This document shows positions 959-34,535 of a DNA stretch of 42,887 nt, in pieces. The DNA is from a virus. The notes beneath the pieces are model-generated. The model was not told where the DNA came from. It saw nothing but the letters and a program-made list of their open reading frames with translations, and ran no database searches. A program made the translations under genes and the position numbers. How positions within the stretch are numbered: position 1 is the stretch's first letter; every line of letters begins with the position of its first letter. The stretch spans positions 1 through 42,887 of IMG/VR virus record IMGVR_UViG_3300048023_000715. One strand, 5' to 3'.

Positions 959-3900
959 ATGTTCAATGTAAGTAATGGATCTACAATTCTAACAATCAAT
1001 AGTGATGACCAAAGTCAAATATTTTTGCCATTACCGATTACTACAGAGAATAGCACAAATAGTATAAGTCAGTTTATAGCAGAAAATGTAGGACCTAATA
1101 CACAGGTATACATCGATATGGATAATACCATAGCAGATTTTAATAAAGGATTAGCAGCTTTATTTGCACTTAGCAATGCTAGAGATATACAGACATTAGA
1201 CAGTGTAAAAATTACTGCAATTCAAAATGCAATGCCAGGATTTTTTTCAAATTTAGAAAAACTCCCCCAAGCAGATAGATTAGTATCTTTATTAACTAGT
1301 TACAAAATACTAACAACTGATACTGGTTTGTTAAACGGAAATGGAGAAAAACAGGATTGGGCTAGTGCAAATTTCCAGCCTACAGGTCCAGTTTTATTTG
1401 CAGAGAATTTTGATAAAGGACCGTATGCACAGACAGATAGTGTGCTGATAGACGATAGTCCTACATATGTAAAACAATTCAGAGACCAAGGCGGATCAGC
1501 ATTTAGATATATTTGGTCAGAAATAGTAGATGGCAGTTTACCACCCGGATTAACATTAGTAGATAACACTATTGTCGGTGCACCAGTAAGTCAAAATACA
1601 ACTACAACTAGTACATTTACAGTTAGAGTACACGACAATGAAGGCTATTATGATAGAGAGCTTGCTATAAAAGTTATTGCTGATCCTACATATACCGTAT
1701 GGACAAAAGAGTCACCTTACAATTTAGGCAGGTTTTTAGAAAGAACAACAGTTACAATTGATTTACCTATTGATCTTACTGCTAATGCAACTACTAGTGT
1801 AATTGCAGGAGACTTGCCTTCTGGTTTGAGATTAGAAAATAATCAAATCAAAGGGTCTGCGTTTGAAGTAAAAAGGCTTACTACTTTTTCTTTTGTTATA
1901 AGAGCAACTTTTAATGGCACAATTAGCGATCGTACCTTTGAAATTACTATTGAAGGCGAAGATGCTCCTGAATGGCTAACACCCGAAGGCGATTTAAATA
2001 TAGGTTCTACATTTACAGAAAGTTTTTGGTTTGATCAAACAAACTCAAACTTTGGTATATATTCTACAATATCAACTGTAAATTACAAAGTAACAGTAGC
2101 ACCTGGTACTAATCAGTATGGTACAGGTAACAAATATTACATAGAAGGCTTCGATGGCCCTAGTCCTACTTTAGAATTAAGAGAAGGAAATACTTATAGA
2201 TTTGATGTATCGGACATATCTGTTGCGACTCACGGTTTGAGATTCTCAACTACTCCAAACGGTATTTGGGACAGCGGGCAAGAATATACTGAAGGCGTTA
2301 CTGTGTTTGGAGTTGCAGGAGCGGAACTAGCCTATGTAGAAATAACTATTCCAGTAGGTGCACCTACTTTATATTACTATTGTATAAATCATTCTGGTAT
2401 GGGAGGTCAAGCAAATACTCCTGTTAGCTATTCCTCTTACACTAAACAAACAGTTTTATACAATGAAGGTGTTCCTAGTAATACCACTGGTGATAACGGA
2501 GAATATTTATTTGATACAGTAAACAATGTATTTTATTTTAAGTATGATGGATTGTGGAAATTACTTAACCAGGATAGTCTAAGAGGTGTTTACGGTAATG
2601 ACACAATATTAGAAGTTAGCGCAACAAGACCAAATCCTTTAAATGTAGATTTTTGGTTTAACATCAATCCTGATAACAACGGCTTAGATTTAAGATTAAC
2701 TAGATTCAATGCAAACACAGAAGTATGGGTGCCAAAAAAATATAGTTTAACAAAAACAGCACCAATTGACCCTGAAGACAAAGATGTATGGATTCAGTAT
2801 TTTGACAATGATACAAGATTAGTATTTAGGTTTTGGGACAGAGACGAATTACAATGGGACGACTTACCTTACACTGCAAGTCCTGTTCCCCCAGAAAGAG
2901 CAAGCAATGCATTCTTCGTTTTAGATAACAGTAGAGTAGATTTTGATCTAGAAGTTATTGATCCAGATTTAACAGCTGGAGAAACTTTAACATTTTATAT
3001 TGCAGAGGGCGACGGAGAATTGCCTCCTGGATTGACTTTGTCAAAAGAAGGTAACATTAAAGGTATAGTAGATCCTATTTTAGCATTAGATTCAGACAAT
3101 TATGATCCTTATGGGGATAGTACTAGACAACAACAAGGTGTTACTGATACTGAAGGTTTTGATAGTGATCCGTATGATGCACAGTTTTATGGATTCGGAT
3201 TGCCTAGTAGAAATCCAAGAAAATTAAATAGAGAATATGAATTCTTTGTTACTGTAGCAGATGATGTAAGTGATAACAGAAGGCGTTTTGCTATTTACGT
3301 TGTAAGTGACGATTTCCTAAGAGCAGATAACACTATAATGAGATCTGCTACAGGGTTGTTTACAGCAGATGTAACATATCTAAGAAAACCTATTTGGTTA
3401 ACTAGAGGTAACTTAGGTAGTATCAGAGCAGATAATTATCAAACAATTTTTATTGATGTATACGATCCAAACTATTTGTTAGGCAATGTAAAATATAACA
3501 TTCGTGAATACAACGATGACGGGTCGAGAAGTATAATTCCAAATGGATTGGATTTTGATACTGATACTGGAGAACTAGCAGGAATAATTCCTTATCAGCC
3601 TGCGGTAGAAGTAGATTACAAATTTACAATTGAGGCAACAAGAAGTGAAGCTGATCAAGAAGTATTTGAAATAAACACAAATATTTTTGAAGACACACTT
3701 GCAGGTATGACTACAGTAAAAGTTAACAAAATTTCTAGAAGTTTAGATGATGGAGTTGATGATGTAGAAGCACTTAAAAAGACACAAGTTACGATTGAAA
3801 ATAATGATTACCTTATTGAACAAATAAATGAAGATAATCTTTTATACGATACTTTACAATTAGGTTTTCCATTACTACCGAGTCCTTTTCTAAAGCCACT

Positions 3901-5878
3901 AACATTAAGCACTAATATAACTATTGGCGATAGTATTGCTTTATTTTACAGAAATAATTTAACTGAAACAGAAATAGCACAATGGGTATCAAGAAACATA
4001 AATTATGGCACCACAGCTAATTTTGTTAAAGAAATTAATTTTGTAAATAATTATAGATTCGTAGGCGAAAGTAATCAAAGTTTAGGAATTAATTTTACAG
4101 GAACAGGAATATCAATTATTCCTGGTGAGCCAATTCAAACATCTGTAAAACGTGCTTTAAGTAAAGTTGCAAATATAGATGAAGATTTAATTATTGTTGA
4201 CGCTACTGACTTAACAAGCATAGTTGTGAACATTCCACAAACAGCCCTAACGAACAATAGAAACTTGCTTGAAAGTGTATTTGAAACTGAAGACAGTTCT
4301 CCAGTTTATAGTGTTGTAGACGAAGATACTGTTAAAGCATTATTTACAAATAGTTGGACCGTGAATGTAGCAAAAGATACGCAATTTGCATTAGGTGCTA
4401 TTAAAGATAAAAGTATTACCAAAAGAATTTTAGAAACACAAAGTGAATTTACTAGTACTAGTAAAACATTTACCCTAAAAGTTTTAGGTAATGTTGATAG
4501 TACAATTAGATGGATTACTCCAGAAACATTACCTTCCTTAGGCGCTAATAGAATAAGTTATTTAAATGTTCAAGCTGAAACAACTTTAGAAGGTGCTAAT
4601 CTAAGATATGATTTAATATCAGGAAAATTACCTGTTGGTTTACAATTAAAGCGTAATGGCGAAATAACTGGAACAGTTAAGCAATTCGGTACTACTGCGG
4701 ATCCCGGACTAACAACTATAGATGATAGAACTACTACATTTGACGGTACTAGCACTACATTTGATAGAAAATTTACATTCAAAGTTTTAGCAAGAGATAG
4801 ATTTGGTTATAGTGCATTATCAAGAACATTTAGTATTACCATTATTGATCTTGATACAAAATTATACAGCAATGTTTATATGCAACCATTTTTAAATACT
4901 GCACAAAGAAATTTATATAATGAATTTATTAATGATTATACAATTTTTGATGCAAGTTTAATTTATCGCCCATATGACACTAATTTTGGATTACAAAAAG
5001 ATTTACGTACACTTGCTTATGCAGGAATTGAACAAAAAAATATTGAAAGTTTTGCTGCTGCGGTTACATTAAATCATACTAAGAAAAAGTTTACATTTGG
5101 TAGTTTAAAAACTGCTGTTGCTAAACAACCCGGAACAAATGATATTGTATATGAAGTTGTATATGTAGATGTGATTGACCCTGGCGAACCAGAAACCGGT
5201 GAAACACAAGACCGAGCATCTATACGCACAGGTACAGATTTAAAAATTAACCAAGTAAAAAAAGAAGCAAGAGATGACGATAGTGCAAAAGCACAAGGTC
5301 AAGGATTTTTTAGTATCAGCACTAGAAACGGGGTAATTATAAAAGTTAGAGACGAAGCAGGCCTACTAATTAAAACAAGAGCAGGTGATTTAACATTACC
5401 TACAAACGGGGGTATTGCAATTATTGGTAGAAATGGTACAGTATCAGTACAGACAACCAGTTTATCAAATGATGCAAGTGGCGATCCGTATCGCTTTAGA
5501 CCAAACGGTGATGTAGTCACTGTTGATCAAACAAGTGTAATCACAAGTCAGTCAAAAGATAGATTTAGATATCTTAGCAATATTGGAACAATGCGTAAAC
5601 GTATTGCTGCCATTGGTGCTAATGAAAGAGAATTTTTACCATTATGGATGCGTACTGCACAAGATGGAAGTTTATCAGAAATTGATTATGTAACAGCATT
5701 ACCATTATGCTACACTAAGCCAGGTGGAGCACAAACAATTAAAGAAAATATAGAAAACGCTAAGTTTGACTTTAAGCAAATAAATTATGAAATTGATAGA
5801 TATATTGTTGATAAAACAGAAAATAATAATCAAGAAACATTTATTTTATTTCCACGTCATTCTTTTAACAGTGGTTAG
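959..5878 (+). CDS. Giant tail/adhesin structural protein with embedded HAD-like, Ig-like and cupredoxin-like domains
   Basis: This 1639-residue protein is the largest in the window. Residues about 48-184 look like a 5'(3')-deoxyribonucleotidase-type HAD domain: YIDMDNTIADF (nucleophile D53, D55), a Thr strand near 119-120 and VLIDDSP (D165, D166). It resembles the free enzyme encoded at 24757-25491. Then come He_PIG/cadherin-like beta repeats with the signature LPxGLxL...GxIxG near residues 193, 285, 685, 859 and 1222. Residues about 380-484 resemble a cupredoxin, with H425 and a terminal CINHSGMGG giving C475, H478 and M481. The C-terminus (FLPLWMRT, then ALPLCYTKPG) is of a type seen in cyanophage tail-associated proteins. 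It probably forms a long tail fibre or baseplate appendage that touches the host surface. Whether the HAD domain is active is unknown. Confidence 0.75.
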   Translation: MFNVSNGSTILTINSDDQSQIFLPLPITTENSTNSISQFIAENVGPNTQVYIDMDNTIADFNKGLAALFALSNARDIQTLDSVKITAIQNAMPGFFSNLEKLPQADRLVSLLTSYKILTTDTGLLNGNGEKQDWASANFQPTGPVLFAENFDKGPYAQTDSVLIDDSPTYVKQFRDQGGSAFRYIWSEIVDGSLPPGLTLVDNTIVGAPVSQNTTTTSTFTVRVHDNEGYYDRELAIKVIADPTYTVWTKESPYNLGRFLERTTVTIDLPIDLTANATTSVIAGDLPSGLRLENNQIKGSAFEVKRLTTFSFVIRATFNGTISDRTFEITIEGEDAPEWLTPEGDLNIGSTFTESFWFDQTNSNFGIYSTISTVNYKVTVAPGTNQYGTGNKYYIEGFDGPSPTLELREGNTYRFDVSDISVATHGLRFSTTPNGIWDSGQEYTEGVTVFGVAGAELAYVEITIPVGAPTLYYYCINHSGMGGQANTPVSYSSYTKQTVLYNEGVPSNTTGDNGEYLFDTVNNVFYFKYDGLWKLLNQDSLRGVYGNDTILEVSATRPNPLNVDFWFNINPDNNGLDLRLTRFNANTEVWVPKKYSLTKTAPIDPEDKDVWIQYFDNDTRLVFRFWDRDELQWDDLPYTASPVPPERASNAFFVLDNSRVDFDLEVIDPDLTAGETLTFYIAEGDGELPPGLTLSKEGNIKGIVDPILALDSDNYDPYGDSTRQQQGVTDTEGFDSDPYDAQFYGFGLPSRNPRKLNREYEFFVTVADDVSDNRRRFAIYVVSDDFLRADNTIMRSATGLFTADVTYLRKPIWLTRGNLGSIRADNYQTIFIDVYDPNYLLGNVKYNIREYNDDGSRSIIPNGLDFDTDTGELAGIIPYQPAVEVDYKFTIEATRSEADQEVFEINTNIFEDTLAGMTTVKVNKISRSLDDGVDDVEALKKTQVTIENNDYLIEQINEDNLLYDTLQLGFPLLPSPFLKPLTLSTNITIGDSIALFYRNNLTETEIAQWVSRNINYGTTANFVKEINFVNNYRFVGESNQSLGINFTGTGISIIPGEPIQTSVKRALSKVANIDEDLIIVDATDLTSIVVNIPQTALTNNRNLLESVFETEDSSPVYSVVDEDTVKALFTNSWTVNVAKDTQFALGAIKDKSITKRILETQSEFTSTSKTFTLKVLGNVDSTIRWITPETLPSLGANRISYLNVQAETTLEGANLRYDLISGKLPVGLQLKRNGEITGTVKQFGTTADPGLTTIDDRTTTFDGTSTTFDRKFTFKVLARDRFGYSALSRTFSITIIDLDTKLYSNVYMQPFLNTAQRNLYNEFINDYTIFDASLIYRPYDTNFGLQKDLRTLAYAGIEQKNIESFAAAVTLNHTKKKFTFGSLKTAVAKQPGTNDIVYEVVYVDVIDPGEPETGETQDRASIRTGTDLKINQVKKEARDDDSAKAQGQGFFSISTRNGVIIKVRDEAGLLIKTRAGDLTLPTNGGIAIIGRNGTVSVQTTSLSNDASGDPYRFRPNGDVVTVDQTSVITSQSKDRFRYLSNIGTMRKRIAAIGANEREFLPLWMRTAQDGSLSEIDYVTALPLCYTKPGGAQTIKENIENAKFDFKQINYEIDRYIVDKTENNNQETFILFPRHSFNSG

Positions 5879-24439: not shown

Positions 24440-24770
24440 ACACATAGATGAAGGTGTAGGACGTATTGTAAAAGGTGTAAACACTACTCCTGATGTCGGT
24501 GTGAACCAAACCAGTATTGAAGCAGCAAAGTTTGGCAACAAAGTAGACAAAGACGGACGTCCTCCTACTCTAAGTAAAAAAGTAAAAGGTAACAGCACAA
24601 ACGTTCTTTATAATTTAGGATTAGCAGAAAGCACACAACCACGTTATACAGCAATGGAATGGGCTTGCATAGAAGGTGGGCATAGTTTAGAAGATATTGC
24701 AATCAAGCCCAAAAAACCAGGAAGCATATTTTCAGCTATTACAAATGGAGACTTGGATGCGATTTTCTGA
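24429..24770 (+). CDS. Hypothetical late protein, TTG start
   Basis: A 113-residue protein starting at TTG 24429 (no ATG fits the conserved overlap with the preceding gene). It begins MKIEHIDEGVGRIVKGVNTT; IDE at residues 6-8 fits the [I/L/F]xE pattern. The middle is Lys/Thr/Asn rich and probably flexible, and the end has TQPRYTAMEWACIEGGHSLE. No enzyme motif is seen. Its end overlaps the next gene's start. Confidence 0.5.
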   Translation: MKIEHIDEGVGRIVKGVNTTPDVGVNQTSIEAAKFGNKVDKDGRPPTLSKKVKGNSTNVLYNLGLAESTQPRYTAMEWACIEGGHSLEDIAIKPKKPGSIFSAITNGDLDAIF

Positions 24771-25491
24771 GATTAAAAATTTTGCTTCTTTGAAAGAGGA
24801 AGTAGGATTAAATCCAAATACAAAAATATATATTGATATGGATGGTGTACTTGCTGATTTTTTTGGTGAATGGGCAAAGATTATGCAAGTTGATCATTTC
24901 ACTCAAATTAATAAACAACACAATATAGATGATGCTCTACAAAAGATAAGAGACACTGACGAATTTTGGCTAAACTTGCCTTTATTACCACAAGCAAAAG
25001 ATTTACTTGGTTTGGTAAAAAAAGTAAAAAATGAATATTATATTTGTAGTACTCCATTAGCTGATGATCCAAAGTCTGAACCACATAAGCGTGAATGGAT
25101 CAAAAAGAATTTAGCATTTTTCCCTCCAAAAGATGTTTACATTACACACAATAAACCACAGTTTGCAAAAAATGATGATGGAACATCTAATATATTAATT
25201 GATGACTATGGTGTCAATATAAATGCTTGGGAAGATGCTGGCGGAATTGGTTTCAAGTATAAAGATCACAAGTTTGAAAGAACAGCAAAAGCAATTAAAC
25301 AAGCAGTCGGTGAAAACTTTGCTGATGGTAAGAAAAAAGGCAAAAGTCGTCCTGGTAGAGTAAAGAAGTCGGGTGCTAGTTGTAATGGTAGTGTAACAGC
25401 ATTACGCAAACGTGCTAAGAACGCAAGTGGCGAAAAGGCTAAAATGTATCACTGGTGTGCTAATATGAAGTCAGGACGTAAGAAGAAATGA
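24757..25491 (+). CDS. HAD 5'-nucleotidase-like enzyme with basic Cys-containing C-terminal module
   Basis: A 244-residue protein. Residues about 24-185 are a 5'(3')-deoxyribonucleotidase-type HAD domain: IYIDMDGVLADFFGEW (nucleophile D27, D29), a YYICSTPLADDP strand and NILIDDYGVNI (acidic motif IV). This would dephosphorylate nucleotides. The C-terminal 45 residues are a separate module (RPGRVKKSGASCNGSVTALR, MYHWCANMKSGRKKK) seen on other marine T4-like proteins. The N-terminus MRFSEIKNFASLKEE has FSE and LKE. ATG 24757 is chosen because GGAG lies 6 bases before it. The HAD domain resembles one inside the tail protein at 959. Confidence 0.75.
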   Translation: MRFSEIKNFASLKEEVGLNPNTKIYIDMDGVLADFFGEWAKIMQVDHFTQINKQHNIDDALQKIRDTDEFWLNLPLLPQAKDLLGLVKKVKNEYYICSTPLADDPKSEPHKREWIKKNLAFFPPKDVYITHNKPQFAKNDDGTSNILIDDYGVNINAWEDAGGIGFKYKDHKFERTAKAIKQAVGENFADGKKKGKSRPGRVKKSGASCNGSVTALRKRAKNASGEKAKMYHWCANMKSGRKKK

Positions 25492-31853: not shown

Positions 31854-34535
31854 ATGCCATATGTAGATGCATTTTTTGATAGAGACGCTGATATTATTCG
31901 TGCAGTAGAACGCAAAGACGGAAAGCGACTTTATAATGAATATCAAGCCAAATACACTTGGTACTATGAAGATCCACGTGGCAAATACAAAAGCATCTTC
32001 GGTGATCCGTTACAACGTGTAGTATGTAAAAACACAAAAGACTTTCGAAAAGAACTTGCTATTAATAAAGGCAAGAATATGTTTGAATCGGATGTAAATC
32101 CTATATTTCAATGTTTAAGTGAAAATTACTTGAACCAAGATGCACCAAAGTTGAATGTGGCGTTTTGGGATATTGAAACTGACTTTGATCCAGAACGTGG
32201 ATTTGCTCCAGTTGAAGATCCATTTATGCCTATTACTGCTATTACAGTACATTTGCAATGGTTAGATATGTTAATTACAGTTGCTATGCCTCCCAAAGGG
32301 TTGCCAATTGAAGAAGCAAGGGCAATGTGTAAAGAACGCTGGGGCGATACTTGTATATTATATCCGAATAGCAAACAAGGTGAAGGAGATATGCTGGAAG
32401 CATTTCTTGACCTAATTGAGGATGCTGATATTCATAGTGGTTGGAACAGCGAAGGCTATGACGTTCCATACACTGTTAATAGAATACAACGTGTATTAAG
32501 CAAAGATGATACCAGACGTTTCTGTTTATGGGGGCAGTTGCCTAAGCGTAGAGAATATGAAAAGTTTGGCAAGACAAGTGAAACGTATGATACTATCGGA
32601 AGAGTACATATGGACTATCTTAACTTGTATCGCAAGTACACATATGAAGAACGTCACACATATAGACTAGACGCTATTGGTGAAATGGAAGTAGGCGAGA
32701 ACAAGACTGTGTATGAAGGCACACTTGATCAGCTTTACAACAACGACTTTGAAAAGTTTATTGAATACAACAGACAAGACGTTGCACTGCTAGACAAACT
32801 TGATAAGAAACTACGTTTTATTGATCTTGCAAATGAAATTGCGCACGACAACACAGTGCTATTACAAACAACAGCAGGTGCAGTTGCAGTTACAGAGCAA
32901 GCTATTGTTAACGAAGCACACAGGCGTGGTATGCAGGTGCCTAACAGAATGAATCACGAAGGCAACACAGCAGCAGCAGGCGCTTATGTTGCATTTCCAA
33001 AAAAAGGCGTACACGAGTGGATTGGTTCAATGGACTTAAACAGTCTGTATCCAAGTATTATTCGTGCATTGAATATGGCGCCGGAAACTATTGTAGGACA
33101 GATTCGTCCAGTATTAACAGATGAGTTTTTGCACAATGCAACTACACTAGAAAAGAAAAGTTTTGCAGGTGCTTGGGAAGGCAAGTTTGCTACGCTAGAA
33201 TATGATGCTGTAATGGAACAACGCAAAGATGTATCGTTGCACTTGGACTTGGAAGATGGCACCAGTCACGTACTAAGTGGTGCAGAGATTTGGAAACTAA
33301 TTTTTGACAGTAATCAACCTTGGATGCTTAGTGCTAATGGTACAATTTTTACTACAGAAGTTGAAGGTGTTGTTCCAGGGTTACTAAAACGTTGGTATGC
33401 TGAACGTAAAGAACTACAAGCAAAAATGCGCAAAGCCATTGATGCAAACAATAGCACAGAAATAGCGTTTTGGGATAAAAGACAACTTGTTAAAAAGATT
33501 AACTTGAACAGTTTGTATGGTGCTATTCTTAATCCAGGTTGTAGATTTTTTGATAAACGTATCGGACAGAGTACAACACTAACAGGTAGATGTATTGCAA
33601 AACATATGAGTGCAGAAGTGAATAAGATTATTACCGGTGAATATAATCACGTCGGTAAAGCTATTATATACGGCGATACAGATTCTGTTTATTTTAGTGC
33701 ATATCCTGTATTAAAAGATGAAATTGCTACAGGTAGTATTCCGTGGGGCAAAGACAATGTTATTACGCTGTATGATCAATTATGCGAACAAGCAAACACA
33801 ACTTTCCCAGACTTTATGCGTGAAGCCTTCCATTGTCCACGTCCACGCAGTGAAGTGATTGCAGCAGCAAGAGAAGTTGTTGCAGACACAGGCTTGTTTA
33901 TTACAAAGAAACGTTATGCAGTGCGTGTTTATGACTTAGAAGGCGATAGAAAAGACAAAGAAGGTAGTTTAGGTAAAGTTAAGGCAATGGGCTTGGACTT
34001 GAAACGCAGTGATACCCCTGTGTTTATGCAAGACTATTTGAAAACATTGCTTGATAGGGTATTAGGACTAGAAGATGAAAAAAATCTATTAGAAAGTATT
34101 AGTGAGTTTAGGCGTGAGTTTAAAGAACGTCCGGGTTTTGAAAAAGGTTCACCCAAACGTGCAAATAAGATTGGACACTATCAACGTCTTGAAGAAAAGC
34201 AAGGTAAAGCAAATATGCCTGGACACGTAAGAGCAAGTATCAATTGGAATACACTTAAACGTATGAACGGCGACAAGTATTCACAAGAGATTGTAGATGG
34301 TATGAAAGTTATTGTTTGCAAACTAAAACAGAATCCACTGGGGTATACAAGTGTAGCATATCCAACAGACGAATTACGTATTCCAGAATGGTTCAAGGAA
34401 CTGCCATTTGATGGCGATGCAATGGAAGAAGTTATTATTGACAACAAACTAGACAACTTGATTGGCGTGTTGAAATATGATTTAGAAAGCACAAAACAAA
34501 AAACAACATTTAATAATTTATTTGAATGGAATTAA
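31854..34535 (+). CDS. 43: Family B DNA polymerase, T4 gp43-like
   Basis: An 893-residue replicative polymerase. Exonuclease motifs: FWDIETDFDPERGF (D106, E108), HSGWNSEGYDVPY and EYNRQDVALLDKL. Polymerase motifs: A, SMDLNSLYPSIIRALNM (D394); B, KKINLNSLYGAILNPG; C, IYGDTDSVYFS (D608, D610). The length is near T4 gp43 (898), with no intein or split. It replicates phage DNA with proofreading and works with the gp44 loader and gp45 clamp. It has its own extended -10 promoter. The C-terminus (TTFNNLFEWN) may dock on the clamp. Confidence 0.97.
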   Translation: MPYVDAFFDRDADIIRAVERKDGKRLYNEYQAKYTWYYEDPRGKYKSIFGDPLQRVVCKNTKDFRKELAINKGKNMFESDVNPIFQCLSENYLNQDAPKLNVAFWDIETDFDPERGFAPVEDPFMPITAITVHLQWLDMLITVAMPPKGLPIEEARAMCKERWGDTCILYPNSKQGEGDMLEAFLDLIEDADIHSGWNSEGYDVPYTVNRIQRVLSKDDTRRFCLWGQLPKRREYEKFGKTSETYDTIGRVHMDYLNLYRKYTYEERHTYRLDAIGEMEVGENKTVYEGTLDQLYNNDFEKFIEYNRQDVALLDKLDKKLRFIDLANEIAHDNTVLLQTTAGAVAVTEQAIVNEAHRRGMQVPNRMNHEGNTAAAGAYVAFPKKGVHEWIGSMDLNSLYPSIIRALNMAPETIVGQIRPVLTDEFLHNATTLEKKSFAGAWEGKFATLEYDAVMEQRKDVSLHLDLEDGTSHVLSGAEIWKLIFDSNQPWMLSANGTIFTTEVEGVVPGLLKRWYAERKELQAKMRKAIDANNSTEIAFWDKRQLVKKINLNSLYGAILNPGCRFFDKRIGQSTTLTGRCIAKHMSAEVNKIITGEYNHVGKAIIYGDTDSVYFSAYPVLKDEIATGSIPWGKDNVITLYDQLCEQANTTFPDFMREAFHCPRPRSEVIAAAREVVADTGLFITKKRYAVRVYDLEGDRKDKEGSLGKVKAMGLDLKRSDTPVFMQDYLKTLLDRVLGLEDEKNLLESISEFRREFKERPGFEKGSPKRANKIGHYQRLEEKQGKANMPGHVRASINWNTLKRMNGDKYSQEIVDGMKVIVCKLKQNPLGYTSVAYPTDELRIPEWFKELPFDGDAMEEVIIDNKLDNLIGVLKYDLESTKQKTTFNNLFEWN

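Follow-up and report, generated by a model that had tools for sequence, protein, structure and literature searches.

A nucleotidase-type HAD domain inserted into the first Ig-like domain of a giant phage tail protein

A giant tail protein with an inserted HAD domain

The window that we analyzed is a 42,887-nucleotide stretch of viral DNA (positions 1–42,887 of IMG/VR record IMGVR_UViG_3300048023_000715), near the start of which an ORF (959–5878) encodes a giant Ig-rich protein of 1639 amino acids; the ORF and all of the features described within it lie on the + strand. A Pfam scan found tandem He_PIG domains (PF05345) in five stretches of this protein (E=3e-18), which is what characterizes the He_PIG tail proteins of tailed phages, and a PHROG scan returned matches to tail-fibre families. 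The upstream neighbour (278–946, + strand) resembled the N terminus of the baseplate-wedge/tail-fibre connector family PHROG 677 (E=6.7e-07). From the gene order and the PHROG tail matches of both proteins, we infer that the 1639-aa protein lies on the outer part of the tail, and its identity as an adhesin is plausible. Its C-terminal part (4505–5875; FLPLWMRT ... INYEIDRYIVDK) defines the family and is conserved in 206 relatives in IMG/VR; more distantly, the homology extends to a protein of Agrobacterium phage Atu_ph07 that is annotated as a proteinase precursor. Because the DNA polymerase of the window (31854–34535) was closest (44–50%) to those of the jumbo phages Sinorhizobium phage Phosso and Atu_ph07, we regard the virus as a marine relative of the Phosso/Atu_ph07 group. 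The virion of Atu_ph07 contains 131 proteins, according to its published description (PMC6102473).

The preliminary description had proposed that a nucleotidase-like HAD domain is built into this tail protein, which was borne out by profile search and structure modelling alike. When the whole 1639-aa protein was scanned, residues 47–182 matched PHROG 2643 (5′-3′ deoxyribonucleotidase) with an E value of 7.3e-11. BLASTP of the first 194 residues against the protein that starts at the ATG at 24757 in the same window, which is a free-standing enzyme of the same type, gave 31% identity over 160 columns (E=7e-13), with residues 40–184 of the tail protein aligned to residues 12–168 of the free enzyme. 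The Pfam NT5C score of the fused copy was 16.9 bits, under the cut-off of 24.8, whereas the free copy scored 35.1 bits, above it; six of the seven fused relatives likewise gave weak NT5C matches (best E=5e-05). Among PDB chains, a profile built only from fused copies placed the solved 5′(3′)-deoxyribonucleotidases first, although weakly (2jao, E=0.0019), and a profile of 77 relatives, dominated by free enzymes, matched them with E values of 1e-10 to 1e-7. The BLASTP, PHROG 2643, and PDB-profile matches thus indicate that the HAD observation is real rather than a chance similarity.

Together with a Rossmann-like core, all four motifs that define the HAD superfamily (DxDx[T/V] in motif I, T/S in motif II, K in motif III, and DD in motif IV) were found in the fused domain. 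Motif I is D53-M-D55-N-T57 (1115–1129), the DMD of which is invariant in the 77 sequences, and motif II is T119-T120 within LTT (1313–1318), position 119 being T in all eight Ig-fused copies and S or T in all others. The motif III lysine, K131 (EK..W; 1349–1351), is invariant in the 77 sequences and was aligned by profile with the lysine of GEKYRW in 2jao; a second lysine, K153 (1415–1417), is also invariant and corresponds in the profile alignment to the lysine of RDK in 2jao. Motif IV is L163-I-D165-D166 (LIDD; 1445–1456), with DD invariant in the 77 sequences. The catalytic positions were unchanged in each of the eight fused homologs used. In the 77-sequence alignment only 11 of the 138 HAD columns are invariant, and D53, D55, K131, K153, D165, and D166 fill six of them (hypergeometric p=3.6e-07). 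The same test on 34 dereplicated tail-borne copies alone gave p=4e-05. The domain is under purifying selection (dN/dS about 0.2–0.29), and with values of 0.20–0.29 as opposed to about 0.1–0.2 for most of the protein, it evolves faster than the rest.

An AlphaFold2 model of residues 1–247 based on the 77-sequence alignment reached a mean pLDDT of 95.5 and a pTM of 0.89, superseding a run with only six sequences that had yielded a worthless model (pLDDT 40). Foldseek searches of the PDB with this model returned HAD phosphatases, with AphA first (E=3e-4), and searches of viral models returned phage HAD/nucleotidase proteins, including 5′(3′)-deoxyribonucleotidases, with E values down to 3e-9; the non-HAD remainder matched Ig-like domains. 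AphA is an extracytoplasmic HAD phosphatase that acts on nucleotides. The likeness to this class B acid phosphatase (PDB 2aut, 1z5g), despite its being the top PDB match, is one of fold only, at about 17–19% identity, and AphA has a different cap and oligomer. We assign residues 47–184 (1097–1510) to a complete HAD domain, the type of which is probably NT5C/5′(3′)-deoxyribonucleotidase. With the NT5C family (Pfam PF06941, PHROG 2643; solved structures 2jao, 1mh9, and 4l57) the Ig-fused copies share the HAD core, the DxD, T/S, K, and DD motifs, and a PGFF.NLE.LP.A cap signature. Known members of that family, however, are soluble enzymes or the products of phage accessory genes, whereas here the domain, with its Pfam score below the cut-off, interrupts an Ig-like domain in a protein of virion type.

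The nesting was evident in both the profile matches and the model. The first He_PIG domain of the intact protein is missing its N-terminal part: the Pfam match does not begin until profile position 31, and an Ig HMM specific to the family covered only positions 37–88, at residues 188–239. When residues 1–35 of the window protein were joined in silico to residues 184–245, the HMM match grew to positions 7–88. Joining the flanks raised the score by 6–8 bits in four homologs, a gain that shuffled left flanks equaled in only 0–3 of 300 trials, and shifted the Pfam match from 45–86 to 10–86 with a small gain in bits. In the AlphaFold2 model, strands 8–14 and 21–24 precede the HAD domain and the remaining Ig strands follow it. 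Because joining the flanks completes the HMM match and the modelled Ig strands lie on both sides of the insertion, we conclude that the HAD domain sits inside the first Ig-like domain, not beside it, and splits it into an N-terminal half (residues 1–35; 959–1063) and a C-terminal half (residues 185–243; 1511–1687). The second Ig-like domain (residues 246–337; 1694–1969) is uninterrupted and matched the family HMM over almost its full length (115 bits).

Further along, residues 370–487 (2066–2419) form a second optional insert, which is missing from L013 and L014 in the alignment. It matched tail-fibre PHROGs 30742 and 693, contains a cupredoxin-like metal-ligand pattern (H ... C-x2-H-x2-M, in YYYCINHSGMG), and resembles segments in cyanophage and Pelagibacter phage tail fibres; searches for this insert in Pfam and, by sequence, in the PDB found no match.

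Distribution and relatives of the fused HAD domain

Relatives of the C-terminal part that we examined mostly begin with an intact Ig domain and lack the HAD; others begin with a different N terminus, and it is the HAD that sets the window's protein apart from these He_PIG tail proteins. A search for the same fusion in related phages uncovered one HAD-bearing clade with intact catalytic residues; it consists of the window's virus, L005/L093/L095, L013/L014, and L017/L018, with L096 being a fragment of the HAD-bearing kind. An assembly chimera was considered and rejected, as several independent contigs, drawn from different metagenomes and diverged in sequence, carry the fusion. L015 and L016 are syntenic and 73% identical in the C-terminal part, but the HAD is cleanly missing from both, and their proteins begin at the equivalent of the second Ig-like domain. 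On the tree of the C-terminal part the HAD distribution needs two changes, and the simplest account is one gain and one clean loss. The domain is therefore dispensable, having been lost in one lineage. In three other relatives of the giant protein (L037, L038, and L039 at 5953; 1454 aa), the HAD-bearing N-terminal extension is replaced by a different, unrelated-looking one, which suggests that N-terminal domains are swapped in this family.

A search with the alignment of fused copies also found the tail-type HAD as the C-terminal half of a second protein, of ~345 aa, at 69 IMG/VR loci from other marine phages. The N-terminal half of this protein is PHROG 28581, a domain that Pelagibacter phage HTVC027P and phage 023Pt_psg01 encode without a HAD; HTVC023P and Roseobacter phages CRP-901/902 gave shorter matches to it. 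The gene sits between the capsid/adaptor genes and the tail genes: in L133, genes for the portal, the major head protein, and small connector-region proteins lie upstream, and those for a tail protein and tail fibres lie downstream. The ~345-aa sister is thus a connector-region protein and no obvious adhesin. Because the same enzyme type occurs in this second, unrelated virion protein, we think it probable that an enzyme that removes phosphate was recruited to the virion exterior. A 350-aa nucleotidase of phiM5 was considered as a third fusion and rejected, its gene lying within a replication module.

The window's free-standing enzyme (24757–25491, + strand; 244 aa) also matched PHROG 2643 (E=1.9e-21), and the preliminary description had interpreted the two HADs as products of a duplication in which one copy joined the tail protein. 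The motifs cited for this reading, DMDNT in motif I, LTT in motif II, and LIDD, are indeed present in the tail protein, but the shared PNT linker is not conserved in relatives (SSNST in L013, for example) and is therefore incidental. The duplication itself fared poorly. Rather than being nearest to the free enzymes of the same phages, the Ig-fused HADs formed one clade with the 345-aa-fused HADs, apart from the 24757 family (ultrafast bootstrap 100, SH-aLRT 99), and profile–profile comparison placed the two tail groups nearer to each other (E=2.5e-31) than to the free group (E=6.7e-21 and 1.9e-19). The length of the catalytic loop and a LIDD..TY..QF..AGG..F.Y pattern were also common to the two tail groups and not found in the free enzyme. 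With the closest HAD relatives in the ~345-aa structural protein instead of the 24757 enzyme, a local duplication followed by fusion is left unsupported, and we consider it very improbable, notwithstanding the 31% identity of the copies. The exclusion is moderate rather than firm, because the AU test leaves standing the alternative in which the Ig-fused and free copies form one group (p=0.245).

The Methylophilales phages Melnitz each have two separate free HAD/nucleotidase genes (L009:5953–6465 and L010:3971–4498), annotated as hypothetical in the record examined; the second, a free gene of 170 aa, was considered as a tail fusion and rejected.

Possible role of the fused HAD domain

We slightly favor a reading in which the complete NT5C-type HAD phosphatase domain is displayed on the virion and acts as a phosphomonoesterase at the cell surface. 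The large protein associated with the baseplate or tail fibres would carry the domain in a loop of its N-terminal Ig-like domain, and the HAD would bind Mg2+, which is plentiful in seawater, and hydrolyze phosphomonoesters through a phospho-Asp53 intermediate. Its substrate would be a phosphorylated group at the cell surface, such as the terminal phosphate of a glycan or lipid in the envelope, or a nucleotide, and it might trim or release the surface during adsorption in the manner of the glycosidases, esterases, and phosphodiesterases of phage tails. Homology, fold, nesting, conservation, and the presence in two host proteins are results of computation, whereas activity, metal use, substrate, and host-surface action are predicted. 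Nucleotides need not be the substrate, because the loop between motifs II and III is unlike that of the free phage enzymes. More tentatively, and with somewhat less confidence than an even chance would warrant, marine phages may share a mobile, virion-displayed nucleotidase-type phosphatase module, inserted into at least two unrelated structural proteins, that during adsorption would act as an extracellular enzyme on host-surface phosphates or nucleotides.

The main rival to surface catalysis is that the HAD fold was retained as a ligand-binding adhesin for phosphate, nucleotides, or phosphorylated host glycans, with catalysis secondary or absent. Such a role would suit the conserved pocket and the placement of the HAD amid Ig-like and cupredoxin-like domains, which resemble binding modules; that the HAD changes more quickly than its scaffold is also what one sees in exposed receptor-binding parts. 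A pure binder, however, could afford to lose some catalytic residues, whereas all 34 dereplicated tail-borne copies retain the nucleophile, the other acidic residues, and both lysines, and we consider this explanation unlikely. Conservation of the catalytic residues beyond chance also speaks against the domain being only a structural spacer or oligomerization unit, which its position in an Ig loop and its clean absence from L015/L016 would otherwise fit; we regard that role as quite improbable. The enzyme might instead work as a nucleotidase inside the infected cell before assembly, recycling nucleotides, with its place in a structural protein being incidental. Free phage relatives do sit among genes of nucleotide and DNA metabolism, and the window's own free copy shows the usefulness of such an activity, but this virus already owns a free enzyme and the tail-type HAD is carried by two separate structural proteins. 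The latter suggests that the HAD acts at the virion, and an intracellular role seems to us highly doubtful.

Tail-borne hydrolases that modify phosphate- or acyl-bearing surface polymers include tail-spike GlpQ-like phosphodiesterases and esterases, the folds of which are unrelated to HAD, and to our knowledge no HAD member is known among them. The literature that we searched describes no HAD or nucleotidase fused to a tail protein; likewise, 50,697 phage records contained no such fusion, and no isolate in the collections searched carried either the Ig-type or the ~345-aa fusion. The protein described here provides a case of an enzyme domain lodged inside an Ig domain in a tail protein. If surface catalysis is correct, HAD-type phosphomonoesterases would join the enzymes carried on phage tails, and marine phages would act on phosphorylated surface groups or extracellular nucleotides when attaching; the close relatives with and without the HAD offer a ready-made comparison.

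Multi-domain architectures also occur among relatives of the free nucleotidase. In L191, L197, L202, L204, L205, and L223 these are proteins of up to 1188 aa with stretches that by eye resemble other enzymes and with a common basic C-terminal domain (ENFADGKKKGKSRPGRVK...GEKAKMYHWCANMKSGRKK), an arrangement reminiscent of polyvalent proteins.
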